45,952 nucleotides of DNA from Candidatus Doudnabacteria bacterium (GTDB lineage: Bacteria; Patescibacteriota; Doudnabacteria; UBA920). A program made the translations under genes and the position numbers. The DNA is taken from positions 1 to 45,952 of the forward strand of contig JAEUSF010000007.1 of assembly GCA_016788665.1 (NCBI GenBank). Direction: 5' to 3'. Shown one piece after another: positions 4,508-33,180 of the stretch. Below the pieces are notes generated by a model that was given only the letters and a program-made list of their open reading frames with translations, had not been told where the DNA came from and did not search any database. Positions within the stretch are counted from its first letter, which is position 1, and every line of letters starts with the position of its first letter.

Positions 4508-5188
4508 TTAATTTTTGCGAGTCAAGTTTGCCTCAACTTCATCTAAAACCTTTTTTGCATGCTCTTTTCCGCCAAGACCAAAGGCTATACCTCCCGCAAT
4601 GGCGAGCATGGCCACAATTGCTCTAAACAGGTCATGCAAAAATTCAGTGGCTATTTGAAGTTGTGAGAGAGCTGCTATTATGCTGAACGAAACTATTGCC
4701 CAGCGTGTTATGGCGCCTAAAGCTTGGGAACTGTGCAGCCCGCTGGCTTTTACAGATGAGCTGACAATGCCGGAGAAAAAGTTTGCAGCTAAAACACCCA
4801 AAAGTAAAATAGCCATAGCAACAACTACCTGGCCTGCATATGTTAAGACGCCTTCGTACAAAAATTCGCTAACTTGGCGTAAGCCCAAAATTTCAGCGGC
4901 AGCTATAAAACTCCCTAAAAAGAAAAACCATTTTACTACCCAGGCTCCAAGACCTGCCAAGCTAAGTTTTTTTCCAGTTTTCTCTGACAACTGGCCTAAA
5001 CCCAGTTGGTTTGCTAAATTGTCAATTTTAATGGAGCTTAAAATCTTATGTACTAAGCCACTTAAAATGCTGCCTAAAAGCCAGCCGAGTATAAGAACAA
5101 TAATAACTGCTAGTACATTTGGTAAAACCCATATTATCCTTTGGTACAGGTCCGTAAGCGAGTTTAATACCGTGGTTTGATATGTCAT
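4508..5188 (-). CDS. TM-helix-repeat membrane protein (MscS-related channel-like)
   Basis: A 226-aa integral membrane protein with about four to five hydrophobic segments. It contains two copies of the conserved TM-helix motif (NVLAVIIVLILGWLLGSI and a second near VVVAMAILLLGVLAANFF), as in the PF05552 family of small mechanosensitive-channel-like proteins, and a Gly-rich terminal helix IAGGIAFGLGGKEHAKK. It lacks the soluble beta domain of full MscS, so channel activity is uncertain. It lies between yjbQ and mltG on the same strand. Confidence 0.8.
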   Translation of the reverse strand: MTYQTTVLNSLTDLYQRIIWVLPNVLAVIIVLILGWLLGSILSGLVHKILSSIKIDNLANQLGLGQLSEKTGKKLSLAGLGAWVVKWFFFLGSFIAAAEILGLRQVSEFLYEGVLTYAGQVVVAMAILLLGVLAANFFSGIVSSSVKASGLHSSQALGAITRWAIVSFSIIAALSQLQIATEFLHDLFRAIVAMLAIAGGIAFGLGGKEHAKKVLDEVEANLTRKN

Positions 5189-5230
5189 ATTTTTATTTTT
5201 TATGCGACTTAGTCGCTTAATAATTTTGTT

Positions 5231-5671
5231 TTATTCGCCTAAAATTTTTATCCAAGCCTCTCTGTGTCTGCCACCATCTAGTTCAATAAAAAATATACTT
5301 TGTTTTTCTCCCAACAATATTTCACTTCGCTGAACTATTAAATTTTCCGAAGAGCCCAGCAAAAAAGCTTTCACGTGAGCGTGGCCGTTGCTTCTTTCGT
5401 TAGGGGCGACATTTTGCCTGACTTCAAATAAGTCATGGCTGTAGCTAATATCTAAGGGTACCAGTCTATAAATGGTTTTCATCAGGTCTTGTAACAGCAG
5501 GGGCTCAAAGTGATTGAGCTTAATTGAGGCGGTTGTGTGTGGGCTGAAAACGGTAACCATCCCCTCTTTTACTCCCGATTCAATCACTGCAGTTCTGACG
5601 TGGCTGGTAATGTCTAGCATTTCAAATTGTTTTTTGGTTTCTAGTTGAATTTTTTTTTGGTAGGTTTTCAT
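5231..5671 (-). CDS. YjbQ/UPF0047 family protein
   Basis: A 146-aa member of the YjbQ family (secondary thiamine-phosphate synthase type). Family signatures are present: TVFSPHTTASI, NGHAHVKAFLLG and a C-terminal LLGEKQSIFFIELDGGR segment. Members form compact trimers and some show weak thiamine-phosphate synthase activity, but the true role is unresolved. No thiamine gene lies nearby. It follows the DUF5654-like gene by 28 bp on the same strand. Confidence 0.9.
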   Translation of the reverse strand: MKTYQKKIQLETKKQFEMLDITSHVRTAVIESGVKEGMVTVFSPHTTASIKLNHFEPLLLQDLMKTIYRLVPLDISYSHDLFEVRQNVAPNERSNGHAHVKAFLLGSSENLIVQRSEILLGEKQSIFFIELDGGRHREAWIKILGE

Positions 5672-5699
5672 GGTTTTTATTTTGGAAATTTTTGGAGGG

Positions 5700-6005
5700 T
5701 TATGCTTTACTGTCTTTTTTTGATTCCAGTTTAAATTTTTCAGAAATTTTTGTTAAACGGGAAGTAACAATTACCGCAATAAGAGTGACTATTAGCGTGT
5801 AAGCGAATCTGGAAGCGAGACCTCTGCCGGTGCTGAAATATTGGGCAATAAGCTCTTTTATGGTGTCGTTCCAAGCCAATGCTGCCACCAGAACAAATGC
5901 TGAGCTAATAAATCCTGCTGTTTGGCTAACGACTAGCCGGTTTGCTTCTTTTAAATTTTCTTTAGTTTTGTCAATTAGAATATTTTTATCAATATTTCTA
6001 AGCAT
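5700..6005 (-). CDS. Small membrane protein, DUF5654-like
   Basis: A 101-aa protein with an N-terminal charged segment, a hydrophobic helix carrying FVLVAALAWNDTIKEL, and a second helix (FAYTLIVTLIAVIVTSRL). The ALAWND motif between two helices resembles the DUF5654 family common in archaea and candidate-phyla bacteria. Function unknown. It starts 60 bp after the histidine kinase stop and may be read from the same transcript. Confidence 0.75.
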   Translation of the reverse strand: MLRNIDKNILIDKTKENLKEANRLVVSQTAGFISSAFVLVAALAWNDTIKELIAQYFSTGRGLASRFAYTLIVTLIAVIVTSRLTKISEKFKLESKKDSKA

Positions 6006-6065: not shown

Positions 6066-7739
6066 TTAACCTTTGGTCAGGTCTAAGAGCGTTGTTGCGT
6101 GTAAATCTGTATGTACGGGTAAGCTAAAAGCAAAAACTGACCCTTTGCCTTGACCTTGGCTCTCTGCCCAAATTTTGCCTTTATGCTGTTCTATAATAAC
6201 TTTGGCAACATAAAGCCCCAGGCCCAATCCTGCGCTTTGCTTAACAGATTCATTTCCCCTTTTGAATTTCTGGAAGATTTCTTCTCCTTCTTCTTTAGAG
6301 AAGCCCTTACCAGTATCTTTGACTGAAAAAACTATTTCGTCGTTTTTCTGTTCTAACGATACATTTATATCTCCTTGTTTTGTGTATTTGAGTGCGTTGT
6401 CGATTAAATTATTCATAACCTGCCTTAGCTTTTCTTTGTCGGCCATAATTTTTGGTAAGAAGCCTGACGGGCGTTTGAATTGCAGGTTTAAGTTTTTCTC
6501 TTTTGACATGGGTGTAAGTTGCTCAATTGTTATATCTGCGAGTGATAATGCGTCGGTTTCTTCGAACAAAAATTCCATTTTGCCACGTTCAATACGTGAG
6601 ACATTGAGCATGTCGTCTATAAGAGAAATTTGCGAATTGTTGGTACGGTTAGCTTTGTCTATTACATTTTTTTGTTCGTCGGTTAGTTTGCCAAAATCAC
6701 CAGCCAGCACGGCGCTTAGGTACCATTTTATGGTTGCAGGTGGGGTTCTGAGTTGATGGCTAGCAATGGTAATGAATTCGCTCCTGGCCTGGTCCAGAGC
6801 TTTGAGTTTTTCGTTGGCATCTGCAAGTTGGGTGCTTAAAATTTGAAGCTGGTCCTTTTGTTCTATTTCGTTTCTGACACTTTTATTTAGTAGAAAACTA
6901 ATATTTAAAATTAGAAAAAATATTATAAACCTGAAAGCGGCAGATTGAATGTCTTCGGAAATTAAGACTTCGAAAAGACTACTTATGGCCAATAGAAAAG
7001 TTAAAAATTCCGTTGTAATTATTTTGGCGTTAAGCAGGTGGTAGCGGACTATGGCGACGGCCGTGAAAGCTATAAAAGGAAGAATAAAAACCGGAGCTAA
7101 AGGTATGAATTTTAGGTTATTGAATACAACCGGTAAAAAGAAATTAAAACACAAGATAAGTAAAAAGGTTATGCTGGTTCCGGCAGCTATGGTGTTGTAC
7201 TGCTGTCTTTCCAGCTTTTGTGCTGCGGATCTTTTTTTCCATAAAATAACTAAACTGCCAAGAACTAAGAAAACTACAGCAATTCCAAATAAGGCAATAG
7301 CGGGTCCTCTTTCCGGGTTTGTTACTTGTCCTTCTACGGCAATTTTGTCTATGCGGTTAAATACCAGTGGCGTTAGGGTAAGGATAGAAGTTATAATAGT
7401 TCCCGGTATTAGGATTTTCTTGTACCATTTCGAAAATTTAACTTCTTCTTTGGGGAAAACATAGAAAAATTGAAATAAGGCAAAAGCGTGCCAAACGGCA
7501 GAAAAAATTGTGAGTCGTAAAAACCACAAAATTAATTCCGGTGAGCGAACCTTGTAATTAATGTAGTTAAAAATACCGTAAACCGCGGTTAAGAACGCAA
7601 AAATAAGAAACGTTTTATTGGTAATACTTTTTTTGTTGTTAAAGTATACGACAAAACCTAAAATTCCTATTGCCGCTATGGCAATTCCTACCGCAAGGAG
7701 GTCCAAGTTATTTAAATTTAAAAGTTGTAGAATTTTCAT
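6066..7739 (-). CDS. Membrane sensor histidine kinase, 7TM-type input
   Basis: A 557-aa sensor kinase. The N-terminal third has about seven to eight membrane helices (residues 12-280), of the HisKA_7TM/MHYT-free sensor type, followed by a short coiled coil (about 290-318). The HisKA domain carries phospho-acceptor His328 in ASHQLRTPPATIKW; the usual Leu after TP is Pro. The HATPase domain has the N-box NNLIDNALKY, G1 DTGKGF and G2 GLGLGLYVAK. The start ATG directly abuts the nitroreductase stop (no gap), so it is the last gene of the lyase-ligase-E1-nitroreductase operon. No receiver or output gene is adjacent; an orphan receiver lies at 13624 on the other strand. The ligand is unknown. Confidence 0.95.
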   Translation of the reverse strand: MKILQLLNLNNLDLLAVGIAIAAIGILGFVVYFNNKKSITNKTFLIFAFLTAVYGIFNYINYKVRSPELILWFLRLTIFSAVWHAFALFQFFYVFPKEEVKFSKWYKKILIPGTIITSILTLTPLVFNRIDKIAVEGQVTNPERGPAIALFGIAVVFLVLGSLVILWKKRSAAQKLERQQYNTIAAGTSITFLLILCFNFFLPVVFNNLKFIPLAPVFILPFIAFTAVAIVRYHLLNAKIITTEFLTFLLAISSLFEVLISEDIQSAAFRFIIFFLILNISFLLNKSVRNEIEQKDQLQILSTQLADANEKLKALDQARSEFITIASHQLRTPPATIKWYLSAVLAGDFGKLTDEQKNVIDKANRTNNSQISLIDDMLNVSRIERGKMEFLFEETDALSLADITIEQLTPMSKEKNLNLQFKRPSGFLPKIMADKEKLRQVMNNLIDNALKYTKQGDINVSLEQKNDEIVFSVKDTGKGFSKEEGEEIFQKFKRGNESVKQSAGLGLGLYVAKVIIEQHKGKIWAESQGQGKGSVFAFSLPVHTDLHATTLLDLTKG

Positions 7740-8804
7740 TTACTTCCAAATAATTTTGGCGGGTTGTCTAAGTGTTCGGGCGCTGGGCTCTCCCCCGTCC
7801 CCTATTCTGAACATTAACAGAGCGTGTTCGTTTTTTAGCTGAAAAGTCTTTTTAATTTCATTATAAGAGTCCTCAATGACTCTTATGTGTTTTTTAGACA
7901 AACCAGGATCGGAAAGGTTTTTAATTCGTTGGTATAAAAAACATATACCAGTTAACGGTTGGAAAGAAAGCTTAAGTGCGGTGGTTTTTAGCCATATTTC
8001 TTCAAGCAGTTTTCCTGCACTAAGGTAGTCCTTTCCAGTAATGCCTTGGCTGGTAATTACACCATGCAGATATGAGCTTTCATAAATTTGGGCATTTTGC
8101 TTTGCAATGAAATTGGCAAAGCCCAAAGCCCCTAGTACGCGCATAATCTGCCAGTTTTGTGCGAGCTTAAAGCCAGGCAACGCAGGACCTGGTATTTCAA
8201 GAGTTTTAATATAGAAACCTTTTTTATGTTTAATTTCTTCACTTGTAGACCAGTTAATATGCGAATAGAAAAAATTGTGCATATGCTGGTTTTCAAACAG
8301 GATTTTTTCGTTTGCTGCCACAGCTTTGCCTAAGGTTTTCTTTGATAGTTTATCGCTAATAAATTTTACGTTTGCGTGATGGGTTTCGTTGGGCTTTAAA
8401 TTTTCTTGTAAATTCTGAATAAAAATATCCGCTTTATTTTCGTTGGAATATTTTTTTCGATTGGTACACCTTTCAAACACAGCTTCGAACAGCGCAGGGC
8501 GGCCTTTTTTATCCGAAGGACTTAAGTTTAATACTGCCACTGGTTTTTCCGGGCTTTGGTATTCAAAAAATTCAGTTTGGCAGCTAAGGCTGGAGTTTTC
8601 CGCGGCAATTGCCATATTTTCTACGCAGGCTCCAATTGCCAGCAAAGAAGCTTTGTGACCCCAGCTGTATAAAGAGTTATCAGCTTCTTCAACTAAAAAA
8701 ATTGAAATACTGTTTGTGCTAGCTTCAAAGCGCCAAGGTTGGCAGTTGTCTCCTGAGGGTGCGTGGATTCCAGCGTCGATTATTTTTTCTATTTTTTCTT
8801 TCAT
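7740..8804 (-). CDS. Nitroreductase-fold protein, Rv1355c/MoeY C-terminal-half type
   Basis: A 354-aa protein of the nitroreductase-like (FMN-dependent oxidoreductase) superfamily. The N-terminus has the flavin-site signature HAPSGDNCQPWRFE (about 15-28), and the C-terminus ends with FRIGDGGEPSARTLRQP. It is longer than simple nitroreductases, with two nitroreductase-like halves possible. It starts 6 bp after the ThiF-like gene. From memory, mycobacterial Rv1355c (MoeY, about 715 aa) is a fusion of a ThiF domain and a nitroreductase domain; the 362- and 354-aa neighbours here would equal that fusion split in two. Substrate unknown; redox chemistry on the adenylated or condensed product of the operon is inference. 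Confidence 0.85.
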   Translation of the reverse strand: MKEKIEKIIDAGIHAPSGDNCQPWRFEASTNSISIFLVEEADNSLYSWGHKASLLAIGACVENMAIAAENSSLSCQTEFFEYQSPEKPVAVLNLSPSDKKGRPALFEAVFERCTNRKKYSNENKADIFIQNLQENLKPNETHHANVKFISDKLSKKTLGKAVAANEKILFENQHMHNFFYSHINWSTSEEIKHKKGFYIKTLEIPGPALPGFKLAQNWQIMRVLGALGFANFIAKQNAQIYESSYLHGVITSQGITGKDYLSAGKLLEEIWLKTTALKLSFQPLTGICFLYQRIKNLSDPGLSKKHIRVIEDSYNEIKKTFQLKNEHALLMFRIGDGGEPSARTLRQPAKIIWK

Positions 8805-8810
8805 TTTGTT

Positions 8811-9899
8811 TTAAGCTAAAAGTTCCTTTAGGTTTATTATATACCTATTTTTATTTAGCCGCTGCTTCGTTATTATCATTCTGGCAATATAAGAGAGTGC
8901 GGAAGCGTTAAGAATTGCTGTTCCGCCCAGTTGGGGCCAGGAAACTATGCTTTTCCCGATTTCTGACAATGACTCAAGCATTCTGTTTTCATGGTTTTGT
9001 TTGCCTAGTAATTTTGCAATATACTCCCCTGTTTTCTGTTTGGTGAGATTAAAAAAAGTTTTAGAGGTCACTTTTCCTAGTCGTCCGTTAAAGTAAGGAG
9101 TTTTTTGGTTTAGGTCGTAACGTTCAATGTCCACAATTGCACTATTGCCGACGTCGGCTCCCATAATAACAGGTTTTTTTTGTTTTTTTGCCTCTTCCCG
9201 CAAAAAAATTTTTGCCGGAAAGCTGTCTAACTCGTCTATTACAATATCTAAGTCCTTTACAAAACTTTTAATATTATGTTTTGTGAGGCCTTCGGAAAAG
9301 ATTTCAATTTTTTGGTAGGGATTTATTTCATACAGCTGTTTTGCTAAAATTTCTGTTTTGGGTTCTCCTAAGTTATTTATGCTGGCACGTATGCGGTTTG
9401 TATTGGAAAGAGCAAGTCGGTCAAAGTCAGCAATTTTTATAGACTTTGCTCCCCCTTGTATAATCAGTGCTGTAGCCACACTGCTGCCAATGCTTAAGCC
9501 GCCAATACCTACTTTGGCATTATAAAAGGCTTTTTGTTCCTGGGGGTAAATTAATTTTTGGTTTCGTGAAGTTCTGACTTTAAAATAATCTTCTTCTTCT
9601 AAAATATGAGTTAAGGTATTTAGCCATGGAAAAAAAACCCAGGTTCCAAGTTGTTTTTCCTTTTGCTTGTTTGTTAGGCTGAAATAGTAGAACCTAAAGG
9701 CTTTTTCGGCTTCATTAGGTGTTAAAACCAAATGGGGGTTTTTTAAATAAAACAATTCTTTTTGCTGTTCCAGGTAATCGTCGCAAACTTTAATATTTTT
9801 ATGCTGCGCTAAAAGATGACTCAATTTTTTTTGGTCAAATTTATTGGAAAGCTTATAGAATTTGGGTGGAGCAAAAACTGGCCTTTGTTTTTTGGGCAT
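8811..9899 (-). CDS. ThiF/MoeB/E1-like adenylating enzyme
   Basis: A 362-aa protein: about 120 residues of N-terminal extension, then a Rossmann-type ThiF domain. Visible motifs are the nucleotide loop GIGGLSIGS (131-139), the D-x-D followed by SNTNR (D158, D160, R169), Lys181 in GEPKTE, and DELDS at 222-226. These are the ATP and Mg contacts used by E1-like enzymes to adenylate a carboxylate. No zinc CxxC pairs and no obvious catalytic Cys are seen, so it may only adenylate. The ThiS, MoaD or ubiquitin-like partners of such enzymes are not present in the window. One bp separates it from the upstream ligase gene and 6 bp from the nitroreductase gene. Confidence 0.88.
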   Translation of the reverse strand: MPKKQRPVFAPPKFYKLSNKFDQKKLSHLLAQHKNIKVCDDYLEQQKELFYLKNPHLVLTPNEAEKAFRFYYFSLTNKQKEKQLGTWVFFPWLNTLTHILEEEDYFKVRTSRNQKLIYPQEQKAFYNAKVGIGGLSIGSSVATALIIQGGAKSIKIADFDRLALSNTNRIRASINNLGEPKTEILAKQLYEINPYQKIEIFSEGLTKHNIKSFVKDLDIVIDELDSFPAKIFLREEAKKQKKPVIMGADVGNSAIVDIERYDLNQKTPYFNGRLGKVTSKTFFNLTKQKTGEYIAKLLGKQNHENRMLESLSEIGKSIVSWPQLGGTAILNASALSYIARMIITKQRLNKNRYIINLKELLA

Positions 9900-9900
9900 T

Positions 9901-11379
9901 TTACTGAATGTATTTTGGTTTTAGTCCGGGCTTAAAGTACTTTTCGTGGCTGTACGGCCAAAGTTTAATTTTGGGTGTTAAATCTTTTTGCAGATTTTCG
10001 GTTAAAAATTTGTATTCGGAGTTTAAGTATTTTAACTCCCGAACCACTTCTTGTTGAATTTTTTTTATAAGCGCGCCGCTCGCGGTACTATGCGCTCTAA
10101 GTTCTATGTTTATTTCCAAAAATTCATCGAGGTTTTTTAAGTAGCCCTTCGTCATACTGAATTTCCCGGTAATTTCTTTCAAAAAGATTTTTTTGCTTAG
10201 AGCCTTATGTATATGCTGCGGATAAATATTGGCCGCATAAAATACTATTGCGTAGTCGCTGCGGCCGAAAAGAGCAATGTAGGGCAAATTCCAGTTGGGT
10301 TTATGGGCAGGAAAAAAATCAAGTATCTGCTGCTGCTTAACAATTCTGCCCTTGTCGTGTAAATTAAATCTGACTAAAGGAATGCCACTGTTGGAAGTAA
10401 ACAATAATTCCGAATTTTCCTCTTCTATGTATCTTAATGCGGGATTGTATTGGAAAAAGTTAAATAATTCCGTGCTATTCAACAACTTTTTTTCAAAGCC
10501 CAGACTTTCAATTTTTTTCTTTAAACCCACGGAGTCTGGTGTTTCGTATGCCATAAGAAGCATTTCAGAGGATCCGTAGGTGTTGAAAGCTCGGCAATTT
10601 TTCCCTCCCGCTTCCTGAATTATGTACTCTCGCCATTCTTCGCTAAAGCCTTCGCTGCAAAACATTAGGTTTAAGTGGTAGTTTTTCCATTTTATACCTT
10701 CTAACTTACCTGTCTCTATTACGTCTTTTAGGAAAAAAGGATGGCCTACTAAAATTAGCTGTTTAAAGTTTTGGCCTAAATTTTTTACTGCCTTTAAAAA
10801 TTCCTGTTTGTTGTTGCCTGGACAAATTACGCTAGCGTTGTATTTGTTTATAAGTTGCCAGACAGGCAGGGTGGTTGCTATACCTGACACATACACACCC
10901 ATTGGAAAGCCTATAATTACTAAGGTGCTGTGTTTTTCTATGGCAAATAAATTTCTAAACAGTAATTCGTGAGTTAAGACGGCTTCGTTTTCTTGTTCTT
11001 GGGACCTGGGCCAGTAGCTTGGTACGCCTTTGGTGCCTGAGCTTGAGGCTATAAGTTTAATATTGTCTAATTTTCCGTCCCAGCATCGGTCTTTGAGCTC
11101 GTATGACTGAATGTAATTTTGCTTGTCTGTATGAGGAATTGAAGACAGGTCGGTAATAGTTTTTATTTTGTCCGGGTTTACTTTGTTTTTTTTAAGAAAA
11201 TTTTTATAGGCTGGTACTCTTTTAGAAGCCGATTTAAAAATATTTAGTGCTATCTTTTCACCGGATTTATTCCAAAATTGTTCTGGTTTTTCTCTAAGAA
11301 GTTTTTCGGCCATGTGGGCTGGGTTTGGAGTGTTGGGCTTAGGCGTAACGGCGGAATGCGGAGAAAAAACATTTTTCAT
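9901..11379 (-). CDS. PaaK/CapK-like AMP-forming acyl ligase
   Basis: A 492-aa adenylate-forming enzyme of the phenylacetate-CoA ligase / CapK group. Motifs: N-terminal VPAYKNFL (55-62), phosphate loop SSSGTKGVP (112-120), aromatic-Y-G motif TYGSSEM (267-273), VRFNLHDKG (336-344) in the place of YRTGD, and GRSDYAIVF (372-380). The C-terminus has several lysines near LKPKY that could hold the catalytic Lys. Such enzymes activate a carboxylic acid as an acyl-AMP and often pass it to CoA or an amine. It begins 2 bp after the MIO lyase stop, so its substrate may be the unsaturated or beta-amino acid made by that enzyme (inference). Confidence 0.85.
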   Translation of the reverse strand: MKNVFSPHSAVTPKPNTPNPAHMAEKLLREKPEQFWNKSGEKIALNIFKSASKRVPAYKNFLKKNKVNPDKIKTITDLSSIPHTDKQNYIQSYELKDRCWDGKLDNIKLIASSSGTKGVPSYWPRSQEQENEAVLTHELLFRNLFAIEKHSTLVIIGFPMGVYVSGIATTLPVWQLINKYNASVICPGNNKQEFLKAVKNLGQNFKQLILVGHPFFLKDVIETGKLEGIKWKNYHLNLMFCSEGFSEEWREYIIQEAGGKNCRAFNTYGSSEMLLMAYETPDSVGLKKKIESLGFEKKLLNSTELFNFFQYNPALRYIEEENSELLFTSNSGIPLVRFNLHDKGRIVKQQQILDFFPAHKPNWNLPYIALFGRSDYAIVFYAANIYPQHIHKALSKKIFLKEITGKFSMTKGYLKNLDEFLEINIELRAHSTASGALIKKIQQEVVRELKYLNSEYKFLTENLQKDLTPKIKLWPYSHEKYFKPGLKPKYIQ

Positions 11380-11381
11380 AA

Positions 11382-12932
11382 CTATATGTTTTTTAATTCT
11401 TGGACAATTTGGCTAAGTTCCGAAGTTATTTCGTTGTCAGAGTCAATAACAGGCAAGATTTTTCGGACAGCGTTGTAAAGTTGCTTGGTTTCGTTGGACA
11501 GACTATTTTTGATTTTAAGTATGTCGACGGCTTGGGCAAGCGCTACGGCCTCGATAGATAAAACAATAAATGCATTTTCTATAATTTTATGAGTAAATAA
11601 GGCTGCATCTGTTCCCATACTTACCACGTCTTGGTTGTCGCCATTGGTAGAAATAGAATGTGCGCTCATGGGATAAGCTAAAGTTTGGCTGTTCGCTGTT
11701 GTAGATGTGGCTACAAACTGTAAGCCTTGTAGAGCTAATGTAAGTCCCGGGGTATTTATGTTCAAAAATGGCGGCAAATTTTTTTCTATGTTGGGGTTTA
11801 AAAAGAAATTGACTCGCCTTTCCGACAGCATGGTTAATTTGACCAAGCTAGTTTTCAAATGATCCATGGTTTGTGCTATGTATTCGCCGTGGAAATTTCC
11901 GCCATGCAAAAAATCTTTACTTTCCAAATCTACAATCGGGTTGTCTGTAACGGAGTTTATTTCTACTTCTGTTTCCAGAGAAGATTTTTGTAATGCATCA
12001 TATATAGGTCCGAGTATTTGGGAAATGCACCTTAAAGAATAAACTTCTTGGACTTTTTCTGAAATATGGTTAACCTCTTTGCCCGTGTTAACTTGCGAGT
12101 AGAGTGCTTTTCTATTTTTTATACGTTTGGAAGAGGCAAGAATTCTTCGCATTTCGGAAGCTATTGCAACTTGGCCTTTGTGGGGTCTTAAGCTGTGGAG
12201 TTTTTCTGAAAAACTGTCATTGTAGCCGCCTACTATTTCCAAAGCCATACAACCGAGTGTGGTTGAGAGTTTTAAAAGCCTAGAAGCTTCCGCGCACGCT
12301 AAGGCGGCTATGCCCGACATCATGCTAGTACCGTTAATAAGCGAAAGACCTTCTTTTGGCCCTAGGTTATGAGACTGTAGCTTAAAGCTCTTTAAGGCTT
12401 CGGAGGCTTTTTGAATTTTGTTGTTTATGGATACCTGTCCTTTGCCAATAAATGCCAAGGCTATGTGTGCAAGCTGAACGAGGTCTCCGCTTGTACCAAC
12501 TGCGCCGTGTTCGGGTACTATGGGTATAATTCGGTTATTTACAAATTGTTCAAGGCGTATTAAAAGTTCTTCAGATACGCCTGAATAGCCTTTTAACAGA
12601 GTATTTAGCCTAACCACCATTGCCGCTAACACGAACTGGTCTGGAAGCTTGGGGCCCATTCCGACCGCATGACTGTTAATTAGGTTGTACTGAAGTTTTA
12701 TTAGGTCGGCTTTGGGTAATATGTAGCTCGCCATAGGACCGAACCCTGTGTTTATGCCGTATGTAATTTTTTTGTTTTCGGTCGCGGCCTGCTCGACAAA
12801 TTTTCTAGTTTTCTTTACGAAGCCCAGGCTTTTTATATCTAAGCTGACTTTAAGGGAATTATTTTTGGTAATTTCAGCAATTTTTTCAACAGTTAAATTT
12901 TTACCGTCTAGGGTATATGTTTTTTGTTTCAA
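11382..12932 (-). CDS. MIO-type aromatic amino acid lyase or aminomutase (HAL/PAL family)
   Basis: A 516-aa member of the histidine/phenylalanine ammonia-lyase family, which removes or shifts the alpha-amino group using a self-made MIO cofactor. Motifs: catalytic Tyr in YGINTGFGP (58-66), MIO region GAVGTSGDL (143-151) with TSG instead of the common ASG, SLINGTS (197-203), YSLRC (298-302), DNPIV (330-334), GNFHGE (345-350) and NQDVVSMG (433-440). The last motif favours an aromatic lyase or aminomutase over HutH, yet Ser87-His88 in the specificity position resembles HutH, so the substrate is open. I recall that Pantoea phenylalanine aminomutase also forms MIO from TSG. The start is TTG at 12930-12932; it heads a tightly packed five-gene operon. 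No hut genes are present. Confidence 0.93.
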   Translation of the reverse strand: MKQKTYTLDGKNLTVEKIAEITKNNSLKVSLDIKSLGFVKKTRKFVEQAATENKKITYGINTGFGPMASYILPKADLIKLQYNLINSHAVGMGPKLPDQFVLAAMVVRLNTLLKGYSGVSEELLIRLEQFVNNRIIPIVPEHGAVGTSGDLVQLAHIALAFIGKGQVSINNKIQKASEALKSFKLQSHNLGPKEGLSLINGTSMMSGIAALACAEASRLLKLSTTLGCMALEIVGGYNDSFSEKLHSLRPHKGQVAIASEMRRILASSKRIKNRKALYSQVNTGKEVNHISEKVQEVYSLRCISQILGPIYDALQKSSLETEVEINSVTDNPIVDLESKDFLHGGNFHGEYIAQTMDHLKTSLVKLTMLSERRVNFFLNPNIEKNLPPFLNINTPGLTLALQGLQFVATSTTANSQTLAYPMSAHSISTNGDNQDVVSMGTDAALFTHKIIENAFIVLSIEAVALAQAVDILKIKNSLSNETKQLYNAVRKILPVIDSDNEITSELSQIVQELKNI

Positions 12933-12955: not shown

Positions 12956-12964
12956 ATTATATCA
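12956..12964 (-). promoter_or_regulatory. Extended -10 promoter for the MIO lyase operon
   Basis: Minus strand reads TGATATAAT, a TGn-extended -10 element, 24 bp before the TTG start. No good -35 at the right distance (TAGGGA), as extended -10 promoters tolerate. It lies back-to-back with the promoter of the 174-aa gene. Confidence 0.5.
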
Positions 12965-13044: not shown

Positions 13045-13569
13045 ATGCTGAAGAAAATTCTGTGGGCTTTATTGGCCGCGTGGACGGTATTTACAACCGC
13101 GGCTACTTACCTTTTCCTTTATGGAGGGCCAAAAAATATCCCCTTCCCTTTCCCTGACCAGGGGCACTGCACGCTGGAGGCGTCCAGTGATAAGGCCAGG
13201 AAGGATCTGGCGGCTTCGCTCGAAACCGCGGGTGTAGTAAGGCTAAATTACTCGTTTCTTGCCGGTCAAACCCGGCAGACACTTATGACAGACAACAGAA
13301 CGGTTGTACTGTCAAAAGAAATAGAGGGTATTATTGGCAGGTTGCCTGGCAACTCCAGGTCATTTGTGGTGGAGGATCCGAGCGCGTCGGCGCTGGGCTT
13401 CTCTGCCGACTTGATTGGTCGGGGGTGGGAGTCGGTTGTTTATGACATGACGCCCAACACTTCCCCGCCAAGGAGTTTGATGGTAGTGGAAACCGAGGCG
13501 CTCAAAAACGCCGTGATTGTATTTAGGCGCCATAGCATGAATATGGGCCAGCTCTACATACTCCCCTAA
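13045..13569 (+). CDS. Membrane-anchored or secreted protein, 174 aa, unknown
   Basis: A 174-aa protein with an N-terminal hydrophobic helix (LLAAWTVFTTAATYLFLYGG, about residues 9-28), probably a signal anchor, and a soluble domain outside the membrane. No Cys pair or known motif apart from one Cys near residue 40. It has its own promoter, an ACAGGAGGG ribosome site 6 bp before ATG, and a terminator whose arm starts in the stop codon. Codons are visibly richer in G and C than in the flanking lyase and regulator genes. It sits alone between the MIO operon and the receiver gene. I do not recognise it. Confidence 0.75.
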   Translation: MLKKILWALLAAWTVFTTAATYLFLYGGPKNIPFPFPDQGHCTLEASSDKARKDLAASLETAGVVRLNYSFLAGQTRQTLMTDNRTVVLSKEIEGIIGRLPGNSRSFVVEDPSASALGFSADLIGRGWESVVYDMTPNTSPPRSLMVVETEALKNAVIVFRRHSMNMGQLYILP

Positions 13570-13623: not shown

Positions 13624-14016
13624 ATGCCAGATTTGAAACAGACAAAAATTTTGGTTGCCGAAGACGACCCTGCTATGGCAGAAATTGTGGTTCATAAATT
13701 GACCACAACGGGTTTCAGTGTAAGGCACGCCTCCGACGGCGCAAAGGCTTTGGAGATGTTTAAGGCAGAAACTCCAGATATTATGCTTTTAGACCTTATG
13801 ATGCCCGAAATGGATGGCTTTCAGGTGCTAGAAGCTATTCGAGGAGACTCCGACAAGAAAAAGGCAGAAACACCTGTTATTGTCTTGAGTAACCTTTGGA
13901 GTAACCAAGATATTCTAAAGGCCAAAAGCCTTAAGGCCGACGATTATATGGTTAAAGCGTACTTTACAACCGAAGAGATCTTAAACAAAATAAACGCAAT
14001 ACTGCATTTGCACTAA
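13624..14016 (+). CDS. Receiver-only response regulator
   Basis: A 130-aa CheY-like receiver. Acidic pocket EDDP near residue 15, phospho-acceptor Asp in LLDLMMPEMDG (about residue 57), Ser in the switch position (VIVLSN) and the conserved Lys in DDYMVKAYF, although the usual Pro after that Lys is replaced by Ala. No output domain. A TATAAT lies 14 bp before the ATG and there is no Shine-Dalgarno site. It could receive phosphate from the histidine kinase at 6066-7739, about 6 kb away on the other strand, but nothing in the sequence proves the pairing. It converges on the HU gene with a shared terminator. Confidence 0.9.
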   Translation: MPDLKQTKILVAEDDPAMAEIVVHKLTTTGFSVRHASDGAKALEMFKAETPDIMLLDLMMPEMDGFQVLEAIRGDSDKKKAETPVIVLSNLWSNQDILKAKSLKADDYMVKAYFTTEEILNKINAILHLH

Positions 14017-30237: not shown

Positions 30238-33180
30238 CTAGGGTAAAATATTCCATTCAAAATCCCCTGCTAGGGTTTTTAGTTCAAAAGTCTTAAGTCC
30301 TGTAAGTATTTTGTTTATTTTACCATGTTGGTCCCGCCCGGTAAGTTTGGTTTTGTTATTTTCAAAGTGAAGCTCCAGGTTAAAGTCTTTTTTTGACCTC
30401 GCGTGTTGTTCTAAACTTTTTAAGACTCCTTTTTTGTCTAAGTTCCAGGAAGTTTTAAAAACAGTTTTCGTTATGTTGGCAGATTTGTTGTTATACGACA
30501 AAGCTATTATTTCTGCTCGTGAGTTTTGCTTCCTGTTTTTTTCTTTGAAGAGTATCTCGGCTTTGTTGCCCGCTTTGTCAGTTGCAACTATTCTACTGTC
30601 CTGGTCTTGCAGTGTGTCGAGAGTGTTTTGGGTTTTAAATTCTAAGTCTTTTTTGGTTAGATTAAAACCAATAAGAAATTCTGGAGGCGTTTTGTCTATT
30701 GTAAATTTAATTTGTTTTATTGCCTCGTTATTACCCGCTTTGTCAGTAGAAAAAAACTTTAATACGTGTTCTGTTTCTTGTGTGACTTCTAAACTAATTG
30801 AGCTAGTCGAAGCAGACTGCCAGGGGCTGTTGTCTAATTGGTAGTTAATTTTCAAAATGTCCGATGCTGGTGATATGGACGAGATTGTATCAGTTGCCGA
30901 AAGCAAAACCAATATGTTACTCAAATAAAAATTTTCATTTCCTTTTGTTCCCACTATAGTGGAGGTCGAAACAGGTGGTAAAATATCTGTCGCTGTTTCA
31001 GGGCTGAGTACAGACGAAGGGTTAATGGTTTGGTCCGGCATATTGTTTCCGTCCGTATCTAAAGTGAGTTTGGAATCTTCTGTATTGAGTTCTGCCTTTA
31101 AATTCATAGTTACTGGAATGTTTGAAAAAACTTCTGTTGTTTTGGGCGCGTTATTTTCTATGTTAAGACTTGTGAGAGTAAAAGTTCCCTCCCCTGTCCC
31201 TTTAAGTCGTATATTGTAAACCTGGTTTTCGTCTTCGGGTAAAAATATAAACTTTACATGTCCAAAGATGCTTAGTTCGGCATTTGGGATGTTGTTTTCT
31301 ACGCTTCCATCTTCGGCAAAACCTGCTCTGTTGCCCATTTGGTCATATGCTTCTATGTTCACCGGGCTATATACTGAAATTGCTCTTCCGTTAAGTTTGC
31401 AGTCACTTTCGTTTTGGGAAAGAGAGGGTGTTTCAAGTGAGCTGTCGGTTAAAATATTTACCACCTTTTGCCTAATACCGTTTTGAGACGGCATTTTTCC
31501 GTGGTCTGCCTTAAGTGCATAGAATTTATTGTTTTGACTGGTCGGTAAGTTAGTTGCGCTTTCTAAAGGTACTGTTCCGTCGCCCGGCACAAATATTGGA
31601 GCTTTGTAGCTGGTACTGGTTTCGCCCAAAAGGTTTGTGTATTGATATTCTTGAATTTTGCCCAGGGTGGCCTTTTTACAGCCGACTATGTTGTACAGGT
31701 CTATTCCGTAGTTTCTTAGGTCCGCATTGTCGAATTCTGGGGAATGTAGTAATGCGGAGTTTTCAAAAGCGGTTTGGTTGTAGCCCTTTTGGTTTAGTAA
31801 ATTGTCCCAAACTTCGTTGAAATTTAGGTCTTGAGTTGTGGGCGGTTTTAAAAATTTTTCTTGAGTTAAGTTATAAAAGCTTCCTTTAGCGTTATAATAA
31901 GTTTGGCTCGGAGTTAGGTCGTACACCACAGGAAGGTTTAAGGCAATTTTCTTCATTTCTTCGTCACTTAATCCCACAACTCCAAAGTTGTCTCCTTCCA
32001 GTAATACTTTTATTGCCTTAGGCGCGCCGGTGTTGGGCACGCCCAAAAGAACAGCTTTGTTTACCGAATGGCTACTTGGGTTTTCTAATACATATTTTTT
32101 TAAAAGAAGTCCACCGTTGCTGTGGGCAATAATATTTATTTTGTTGCTACCTGTTATGTTTAAAATTTCGGTAATTTTTTCTTGTAGCAAATTAACATTA
32201 GTTTTGTTATTCGATTGGTCTATAATTCCACTAACTCCATATCGCCAGTCATAAGGGAAAGTGAAAAAATTTTGGTTTTCTGTATAACCTTGGTCTGTAA
32301 ATTCAGATATTAATCCGGAGGTGTAGTCGAATAATTCAAGTTCGATCCCGCCAATCGTTGCTGAGATAGTTTTGATTACATTAGTATATCTAGTAGAATT
32401 TGATGTTGGTTTGAGCAGCGAAGTGAAACTTAAAGGATCCATAAAGTTGTCTGAATTGGCTGGTATAGTCATTTTAGGGTTCGCCCATAATAATTCATCA
32501 TTTTCAGCAATTTCTGTTCCTAAAATTCCTGGTATAAAAAGTATGGGAATTTTAGTGTTTTCCAGGTCTTCAATTCTAGTTGCCATTACGTTACTGCTGG
32601 TAAAGTTAGTACTGGGGTCAGCGTACCAGAAAAGTATATTGCTGGGGTTTTGGTCGGTTCCACCCAATTCAAAAAAAGCTTGGCTACCAAAGCCAAAGCC
32701 ACCGCACGAACCATAGTCTTCTTCTATAAATATGTTTTGTATTTTTTCTCCCCCCGCAAAGTTTACTGTGGTACTTGTAGAGGTGTTGTCGAAAGCAAAT
32801 GTAAAGGGTTTGTATTCGTCTGTGGGCAAAGCGGAAAATGGTACTTTGCTTAAGTTGGTAGAAAAGAAGTTTTTGCCCGAAGTTGTAACTCTGGCATAAA
32901 GCAGGCAGTTGCCATAGGTTTCTTTGGTGCTAGGGTTAGTTTTTAAGTAAACGGTTATAGAGGCCAGCTGGCTTCTGCTGCCAAAGTTGTTGCCTGTGTT
33001 GCCCAGGTTGGGACCGGTGCCGTCTAGAACTTGGGTTGCTTGCCTGTACCAGTATTGATCTTGAAAGATTCTGTTTGGCGGAGTGTTATCGAATAGAATC
33101 TTTGCACTACTAGAATTGGGTGCAAGTATAAAAGCACTTAGAGTCAAGAGAAATGAAATTGAATAAAAACACGACTTCAT
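30238..33180 (-). CDS. Large secreted LCAT/PGAP1-like lipase with C-terminal repeats
   Basis: A 980-aa exported protein. Residues 1-26 are a Sec signal peptide ending SSSA. Residues about 30-200 form a beta-rich N-terminal domain. The catalytic domain of the lecithin:cholesterol acyltransferase type begins with IPILFIPGILGTE (211-223, oxyanion hole), has Ser354 in IAHSNGG, an Asp in PGDGTVPLESA and a His in LKADHGKMP. The C-terminal 350 residues hold at least one Ig-like domain (FTIDKTPPEF, a motif of cell-surface adhesive domains) and a Lys-rich tail. Likely acts on lipids or esters outside the cell. ATGA overlap with the upstream 97-aa membrane gene shows coupling. Confidence 0.88.
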   Translation of the reverse strand: MKSCFYSISFLLTLSAFILAPNSSSAKILFDNTPPNRIFQDQYWYRQATQVLDGTGPNLGNTGNNFGSRSQLASITVYLKTNPSTKETYGNCLLYARVTTSGKNFFSTNLSKVPFSALPTDEYKPFTFAFDNTSTSTTVNFAGGEKIQNIFIEEDYGSCGGFGFGSQAFFELGGTDQNPSNILFWYADPSTNFTSSNVMATRIEDLENTKIPILFIPGILGTEIAENDELLWANPKMTIPANSDNFMDPLSFTSLLKPTSNSTRYTNVIKTISATIGGIELELFDYTSGLISEFTDQGYTENQNFFTFPYDWRYGVSGIIDQSNNKTNVNLLQEKITEILNITGSNKINIIAHSNGGLLLKKYVLENPSSHSVNKAVLLGVPNTGAPKAIKVLLEGDNFGVVGLSDEEMKKIALNLPVVYDLTPSQTYYNAKGSFYNLTQEKFLKPPTTQDLNFNEVWDNLLNQKGYNQTAFENSALLHSPEFDNADLRNYGIDLYNIVGCKKATLGKIQEYQYTNLLGETSTSYKAPIFVPGDGTVPLESATNLPTSQNNKFYALKADHGKMPSQNGIRQKVVNILTDSSLETPSLSQNESDCKLNGRAISVYSPVNIEAYDQMGNRAGFAEDGSVENNIPNAELSIFGHVKFIFLPEDENQVYNIRLKGTGEGTFTLTSLNIENNAPKTTEVFSNIPVTMNLKAELNTEDSKLTLDTDGNNMPDQTINPSSVLSPETATDILPPVSTSTIVGTKGNENFYLSNILVLLSATDTISSISPASDILKINYQLDNSPWQSASTSSISLEVTQETEHVLKFFSTDKAGNNEAIKQIKFTIDKTPPEFLIGFNLTKKDLEFKTQNTLDTLQDQDSRIVATDKAGNKAEILFKEKNRKQNSRAEIIALSYNNKSANITKTVFKTSWNLDKKGVLKSLEQHARSKKDFNLELHFENNKTKLTGRDQHGKINKILTGLKTFELKTLAGDFEWNILP

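Follow-up and report, generated by a model that had tools for sequence, protein, structure and literature searches.

A candidate oxazolone-type operon linked to a seven-transmembrane sensor kinase in Patescibacteria

What does a biosynthetic operon make in a bacterium of reduced metabolism, and why does it end in a gene for a membrane sensor kinase? The question is raised by five genes on the minus strand of contig JAEUSF010000007.1 (assembly GCA_016788665.1), of which a stretch of 45,952 nucleotides, here called the window, was analysed; the host genome (1.06 Mb, 97% complete) is grouped with Ca. Doudnabacteria. An earlier note on this DNA, made without database searches, had described a single operon encoding an MIO enzyme, a PaaK-like ligase, a ThiF-like protein, a nitroreductase and a seven-transmembrane (7TM) histidine kinase, and had proposed a route that starts from an amino acid in a host with a reduced metabolism. 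These points stand: the gene coordinates and the recomputed gaps (2, 1, 6 and 0 bp) were confirmed, the families are well supported by Pfam, NCBIfam and AlphaFold comparisons, the first being that of the MIO ammonia-lyases, and both the amino acid as starting point and the reduced host metabolism were judged right.

We give even chances to the reading that the operon makes an amino-acid-derived small molecule by means of an oxazolone-type enzyme pair, and that this product is sensed by the operon's own 7TM kinase. The product would most likely be an aryl-acyl oxazolone (azlactone) or a ring-opened N-acyl dehydroamino acid. In the proposed pathway the first enzyme would strip the amino group from an amino acid, the MIO lyase of the window converting tyrosine to p-coumarate and the dehydrogenase or aminotransferase found in relatives yielding a 2-keto acid. 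The PaaK-like ligase would then form the acyl-AMP and couple it to another amino acid at the amino group, the ThiF protein would adenylate the free carboxylate and close the oxazolone, and the flavin enzyme would desaturate the Calpha-Cbeta bond. Finally, the 7TM histidine kinase would bind the product, whether the cell's own or that of its neighbours, and pass phosphate to a CheY-like regulator.

The earlier note had allowed that the cluster might be unique to this contig; it is instead widespread in the order and the phylum, and its conserved layout is well supported. The ligase is present in 20 of 49 genomes of the host's order (41%; a profile search recovers the identical 20) and in 55 of 380 genomes sampled from the phylum (about 15%), mostly in the same operon. 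In the order, it adjoins the ThiF gene in 19 of 19 relatives, and the cluster is therefore not a product of chance; nitroreductase and kinase nearly always accompany the two where the contig allows, and the gene order differs in a few of these relatives. A scan of genome contigs with a single ligase protein gave no matches, and a second set of loci came from a scan with the ThiF alignment (80 named loci; 88 loci in the counts after removal of duplicates). As this set was selected via ThiF, ThiF counts within it are not independent evidence, which is provided by searches for ligase, sensor and ThiF, each in the same 380 phylum genomes. The loci come from Kaiser-, Taylor-, Lipton-, Magasanik-, Wolfe-, Yanofsky-, Niyogi-, Uhr-, Andersen-, Gottesman- and Gracilibacteria, among others, and their layout is mostly identical to that of the window. 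Spread was measured within Patescibacteria; one record with the title Planctomycetota (L143) also has the operon, perhaps because its contig was binned wrongly. None of the actinomycete and plasmid matches was annotated with this operon: in two Streptomyces loci ThiF adjoins a GNAT protein (L160) or a ketoacyl-ACP synthase III (L161), and the Rhodococcus match (L163) is a fused Rv1355c-family protein. The claim that no described cluster has this gene set agrees with our search of the open literature, which found none and no characterised match gene for gene.

The ThiF-nitroreductase pair

The third gene matches PF00899 (ThiF, 1e-24) and the fourth PF00881 (nitroreductase, 3e-6) over its N-terminal part only. 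Both match the 722-residue model NF005901 of the Rv1355c family, gene 3 at profile positions 13-339 (1e-87) and gene 4 at 375-715 (4e-54), and an Acg-family model also matches gene 4. The two genes share one reading frame, interrupted between them by one TAA; read through this stop, they reach 476.6 bits with NF005901, whose curated cut-off is 476. The two domains are fused in two further loci (L028/L130, which are one locus, and L125). In the ThiF protein the adenylation motif is kept, and R109, R112, D158, D160, N166, R169, K181 and D225 are at least 93% conserved across the 88 loci. An alignment with a Rhodococcus Rv1355c-family protein shows that the pair also retains the Asp of ThiF and the APSGxNxQPW motif for FMN.

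As two papers describe (PMC12856293, PMC10404671), TrzS (Rv1355c) cyclises and desaturates N-acyl tryptophan to tryptazolone, and OxzB and TyzB/TyzC carry out the same reactions on N-acyl tyrosine or phenylalanine. Sequence comparison thus gives good support to the ThiF and nitroreductase proteins as the two halves of an oxazolone-synthetase-type enzyme (OxzB, TrzS; TyzB/TyzC), and they probably act on an N-acyl amino acid. Because such a pair is a characterised oxazolone synthetase (PMC10404671, PMC12856293), the E1-like step, taken in the earlier note for a second joining, most likely cyclises an N-acyl amino acid, and the flavin step, correctly foreseen there, is most likely desaturation.

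The closest described systems, TrzA-TrzS (Rv1356c-Rv1355c) and OxzA-OxzB of Pseudoalteromonas rubra, share the pairing of a ThiF cyclase with a nitroreductase-family oxidase. TrzS and OxzB are fused proteins, whereas the halves in the window are split by a stop in one frame, and both systems have their own acyl-CoA-dependent N-acyltransferase in place of the PaaK-like ligase, deaminase and 7TM kinase found here. The tyrazolone pathway of M. tuberculosis (TyzA-TyzB-TyzC) resembles the window in its separate, adjacent ThiF and oxidase genes; it differs in an N-acyltransferase-type acyl route, in the absence of such a sensor and in having tyzA on the opposite strand. No comparable kinase or ligase is described for oxazolone pathways in the available parts of PMC10404671 and PMC12856293.

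The deaminase slot and the ligase

If the pair acts on an N-acyl amino acid, where does the acyl group come from? Gene 1 belongs to PF00221 (Lyase_aromatic, E=4e-157), and its best NCBIfam model is FlxA_rubin_TAL, at 586 bits with a cut-off of 700; the MIO enzyme of locus L038 scores 610 bits with the same model and likewise stays below the cut-off. By sequence, gene 1 is the same kind of enzyme as FlxA, not an established FlxA orthologue. The MIO triad T147-S148-G149, the catalytic tyrosines Y58 and Y298, and H88 are invariant among eight homologues, and the specificity is probably for tyrosine (or histidine).

In other loci the first position is held by different enzymes. Among the 88 loci we find an ELFV dehydrogenase in 27, an MIO lyase in 11 and an aminotransferase in 10, never two together. 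The dehydrogenases are of the Leu/Trp type (best model the tryptophan dehydrogenase ScyB, below its cut-off) with K76, K88 and D125 conserved, and the aminotransferases are HisC-like class I/II enzymes with a conserved Lys. The three folds are unrelated, and the act that they have in common is the removal of an alpha-amino group, which two of them can also add. FlxA, the tyrosine ammonia-lyase of flexirubin synthesis, and ScyB of scytonemin synthesis both deaminate aromatic amino acids within pigment pathways. They are the best NCBIfam models for gene 1 and for the slot dehydrogenases, respectively; the operon enzymes differ in scoring under the curated cut-offs, and we noticed no polyene or scytonemin genes nearby.

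The acyl-adenylate activation that the earlier note assigned to the ligase was judged right. The protein has no Pfam match at E<=0.01 and a match to NCBIfam PaaK of 2.8e-15 (55.8 bits, short of the equivalog cut-off of 646). Its AlphaFold model (pLDDT 91) finds PaaK1 as the best PDB match (2y27, E=1e-23), followed by NatL2, AjiA1 and ClxA, and the C-terminal K487 is invariant in 20 homologues. On the ligase tree the split between MIO-linked and keto-acid-linked loci needs 1 change (mean of 10.2 and minimum of 6 for shuffled labels); a careful tree again gives 1 change, 1-2 in bootstrap replicates, with branch support of only 70/16. Dehydrogenase and aminotransferase, by comparison, replace each other at least four times on the ligase tree, and because of this difference we read the ligase as tracking whether the acid is an arylacrylate or a 2-keto acid, which would be expected of an enzyme that has this acid as its substrate. 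In quick trees the same labels need 3 changes for the sensor, 4 for ThiF and 8 for the nitroreductase, the last against 9.0 when shuffled and thus without signal. This would tentatively fit an oxidase that acts on the amino acid half.

Known oxazolone loci use an acyl-CoA-dependent N-acyltransferase (PMC10404671, PMC12856293). At the ACYLTRANSFERASE position of the loci examined, no N-acyltransferase or N-acyl amino acid synthase was recognised, and the host genome has no match to a ketoacyl synthase, FeeM or Acetyltransf_5. We propose, by analogy, that the PaaK-like ligase stands in for the N-acyltransferase and would join the deaminated acid directly to an amino acid. Such chemistry has precedents: NatL2 links an acyl-AMP straight to another small molecule, with no part played by CoA, and gives first an ester and then an amide (PMC7204872), and ClxA performs direct CoA-free joining to amides and esters (PMC12519233). 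NatL2, AjiA1 and ClxA share the PaaK fold and the adenylate chemistry with this ligase; they differ in showing only about 15% identity to it. The deaminase slot with its ligase-type link is well supported by these comparisons, and the substrates are what we infer from them.

The sensor kinase and alternative readings

Gene 5 encodes a 7TM sensor region (about 9-231; PF16927, HisKA_7TM; AlphaFold model pLDDT 80), two further hydrophobic helices, a HisKA domain whose H328 is invariant in the alignment of homologues, and HATPase_c. It is the sole kinase of the host genome that matches over the sensor region. That a sensor kinase is attached to a biosynthetic operon, which the earlier note considered unusual, was confirmed well beyond the window, and the linkage is well supported. 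Ligase and sensor co-occur in 46 of the 380 phylum genomes (Fisher p=5e-24); 44 of 57 ligase matches have the sensor no more than 6 kb away on their own strand, and each of the 28 best sensor matches stands beside a ligase. The argument that the kinase reads the product is drawn chiefly from its place near the operon end: in 57 of the 68 loci whose sequence reaches far enough, it follows ThiF within 4.5 kb. A response regulator without an output domain is likely the partner of the kinase; in 9 of 19 order relatives a homologue of it lies upstream of the operon in divergent orientation.

The putative synthase genes are thus linked to a membrane sensor kinase, as they are in quorum-sensing synthase-receptor systems. 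Two such systems, CqsA-CqsS and LqsA-LqsS, likewise have a signal synthase next to a response regulator and a polytopic histidine kinase of the membrane; they differ in chemistry and sensor, which are unrelated to those here. The fold of the sensor gave only weak matches to generic 7TM proteins and G protein-coupled receptors (best E=0.009, TM-score at most about 0.5), which we do not take for homology, and light sensing through a bound coumaroyl group (a PYP-like thioester) is unlikely, the sensor alignment having no conserved Cys. A C-terminal tail similar to TTLLDLTK recurs in the kinases of several Doudnabacteria relatives and is perhaps a docking motif.

A number of findings weigh against a deaminase-fed oxazolone pathway read by its own kinase. 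No recognised first gene is present in 40 of the 88 loci, 32 of which have at least 3.5 kb of upstream sequence. The joined pair just reaches the cut-off of NF005901, and L028, a natural fusion, stays below it at 452 bits. A Lys occupies the probable equivalent of Arg540 of TrzS (numbering inferred), a residue that affects desaturation. O2 is used by the known desaturases of this family, and many of the hosts probably live where oxygen is scarce. The operon contains no exporter gene, and 48 of 94 genomes that match the sensor model lack the ligase, mostly with weaker matches.

Sensor homologues without the ligase also suit the strongest alternative, namely that the oxazolone or N-acyl dehydroamino acid is made as a pigment, as a protectant or as an antimicrobial, and that the kinase responds to some other cue, its role being confined to control of the operon. 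It is common for a biosynthetic operon to be regulated by an adjacent sensor kinase. The physiological roles of known oxazolones are still open (PMC12856293). We consider this alternative unlikely, though a serious competitor, since the best-matching sensors always adjoin the ligase, the kinase keeps its place downstream of ThiF, and a regulator without a DNA-binding domain would be odd for simple operon control.

Less probable again is that ThiF activates but no ring survives, the pathway ending in a linear N-acyl dehydroamino acid like the stieleriacines, thalassotalic and kyonggic acids. ThiF and nitroreductase are paired in the Stieleria, Thalassotalea and M. kyonggiensis loci with no oxazolone seen, and the Stieleria locus has a methyltransferase (PMC12479983), as have some relatives here. 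Cyclisation by TrzS, however, obligately precedes desaturation (PMC12856293), and oxazolones are labile and easily missed.

That gene 1 is an aminomutase, giving a product with a beta-amino acid as the earlier note had offered as an option, is very improbable. Its closest solved structures by score are indeed tyrosine aminomutase (3kdy, 2rjr) and AdmH, with which it presumably shares the T-S-G triad, but bacterial aminomutase models give only 389-425 bits, all below their cut-offs and more than 160 bits under the FlxA lyase model, and the same slot holds dehydrogenases and aminotransferases, which are unable to turn alpha- into beta-amino acids. An E1 for a ubiquitin-like protein or ribosomal peptide, suggested by the ThiF fold and weak matches to E1-E2 defence models, can practically be dismissed: the 88 ThiF proteins have no conserved Cys, in contrast to enzymes forming a thioester with a protein, which favours a small-molecule substrate over a protein carrier, the Rv1355c family match is far stronger, and no recurrent small-protein gene was seen in the operons. 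A defence system was likewise rejected, the E1 matches being generic only.

Local surroundings and meaning

The features of the locus are collected in Table 1. Of the promoter proposed in the earlier note, the extended -10 element TGATATAAT is present; the consensus scan of the region, however, does no better than chance (21 sites against 16.6 +/- 4.5 in shuffled sequence), so that the element is only plausible as the operon promoter.

Table 1. Features of the operon and its divergent regulator (positions in the window)
Feature	Position	Strand	Size and start	Basis
Extended -10 promoter-like element TGATATAAT	12956..12964	-	24 bp 5' of the TTG start of gene 1	read in sequence
Gene 1, MIO aromatic amino acid ammonia-lyase	11382..12932	-	516 aa, TTG start	PF00221, FlxA_rubin_TAL
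Gene 2, PaaK-family AMP-forming ligase	9901..11379	-	492 aa	NCBIfam PaaK, AlphaFold fold match
Gene 3, ThiF-like adenylating cyclase, putative N half of OxzB/TrzS-type synthetase	8811..9899	-	362 aa	NF005901, PF00899
Gene 4, nitroreductase-family flavin enzyme, putative C-terminal half of that OxzB/TrzS-type enzyme, proposed to act as desaturase	7740..8804	-	354 aa	NF005901, PF00881
Gene 5, sensor histidine kinase	6066..7739	-	557 aa	PF16927, PF00512, PF02518
CheY-like response regulator, divergent from operon	13624..14016	+	130 aa	PF00072, 1e-24

Between operon and regulator lies an open reading frame of 174 aa (13045-13569, +) with an N-terminal hydrophobic stretch and no Pfam or NCBIfam match. 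It looks like a local insertion, because the regulator, where divergent in relatives, usually adjoins the first gene directly. Genes for a DUF5654 protein, a YjbQ/UPF0047 protein and an MscS-like protein follow downstream on the same strand (4508-6005, -); in the relatives checked none of them was seen at this place, and for this reason they were excluded from the operon. A 980-aa protein with an LCAT/lipase domain is encoded at 30238-33180 (-), and a homologue also lies 3' of the operon in locus L022. This locus (L022:4985-7681) is the closest relative by ligase (59%); its nitroreductase is very dissimilar (23-25%) and its kinase sensor resembles that of L038, from which it seems that the nitroreductase-kinase part has been exchanged between operons. 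An optional methyltransferase gene stands between nitroreductase and kinase in L025 (12160-12885), L039 (3209-3931) and L151, and some loci have an unrecognised gene of about 300 aa at this position (L031:13148-14062). Recurrent neighbours in Parcubacteria include DnaJ upstream; on the downstream side, L078 has a tRNA synthetase (W/Y), a synthetase of class II (D/K/N) and ScpA. These are housekeeping genes, and we take them to point to vertical inheritance.

Missing biosynthesis is a known trait of Patescibacteria, and our search of the open literature turned up no signalling molecule described for them. That the product of this operon is a signal read by the kinase, a step we infer from gene position, is held only tentatively. 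Just as tentative is a quorum-sensing-like system in which hosts without fatty acid synthesis would build an aryl oxazolone from two amino acids, a 7TM receptor kinase would receive it and three interchangeable deaminases would set the chemical dialect. The chances are balanced that the operon represents a new form of oxazolone-synthetase pathway, conserved across Patescibacteria, in which a ligase provides the acyl route, one deaminase can take the place of another and a receptor kinase is included. If true, the young class of bacterial oxazolones would gain a route that relies on a PaaK-like ligase and needs no acyl-CoA. The pathway would also be a candidate means by which Patescibacteria cells sense each other or their hosts, and as proposed it names a definite product to look for.

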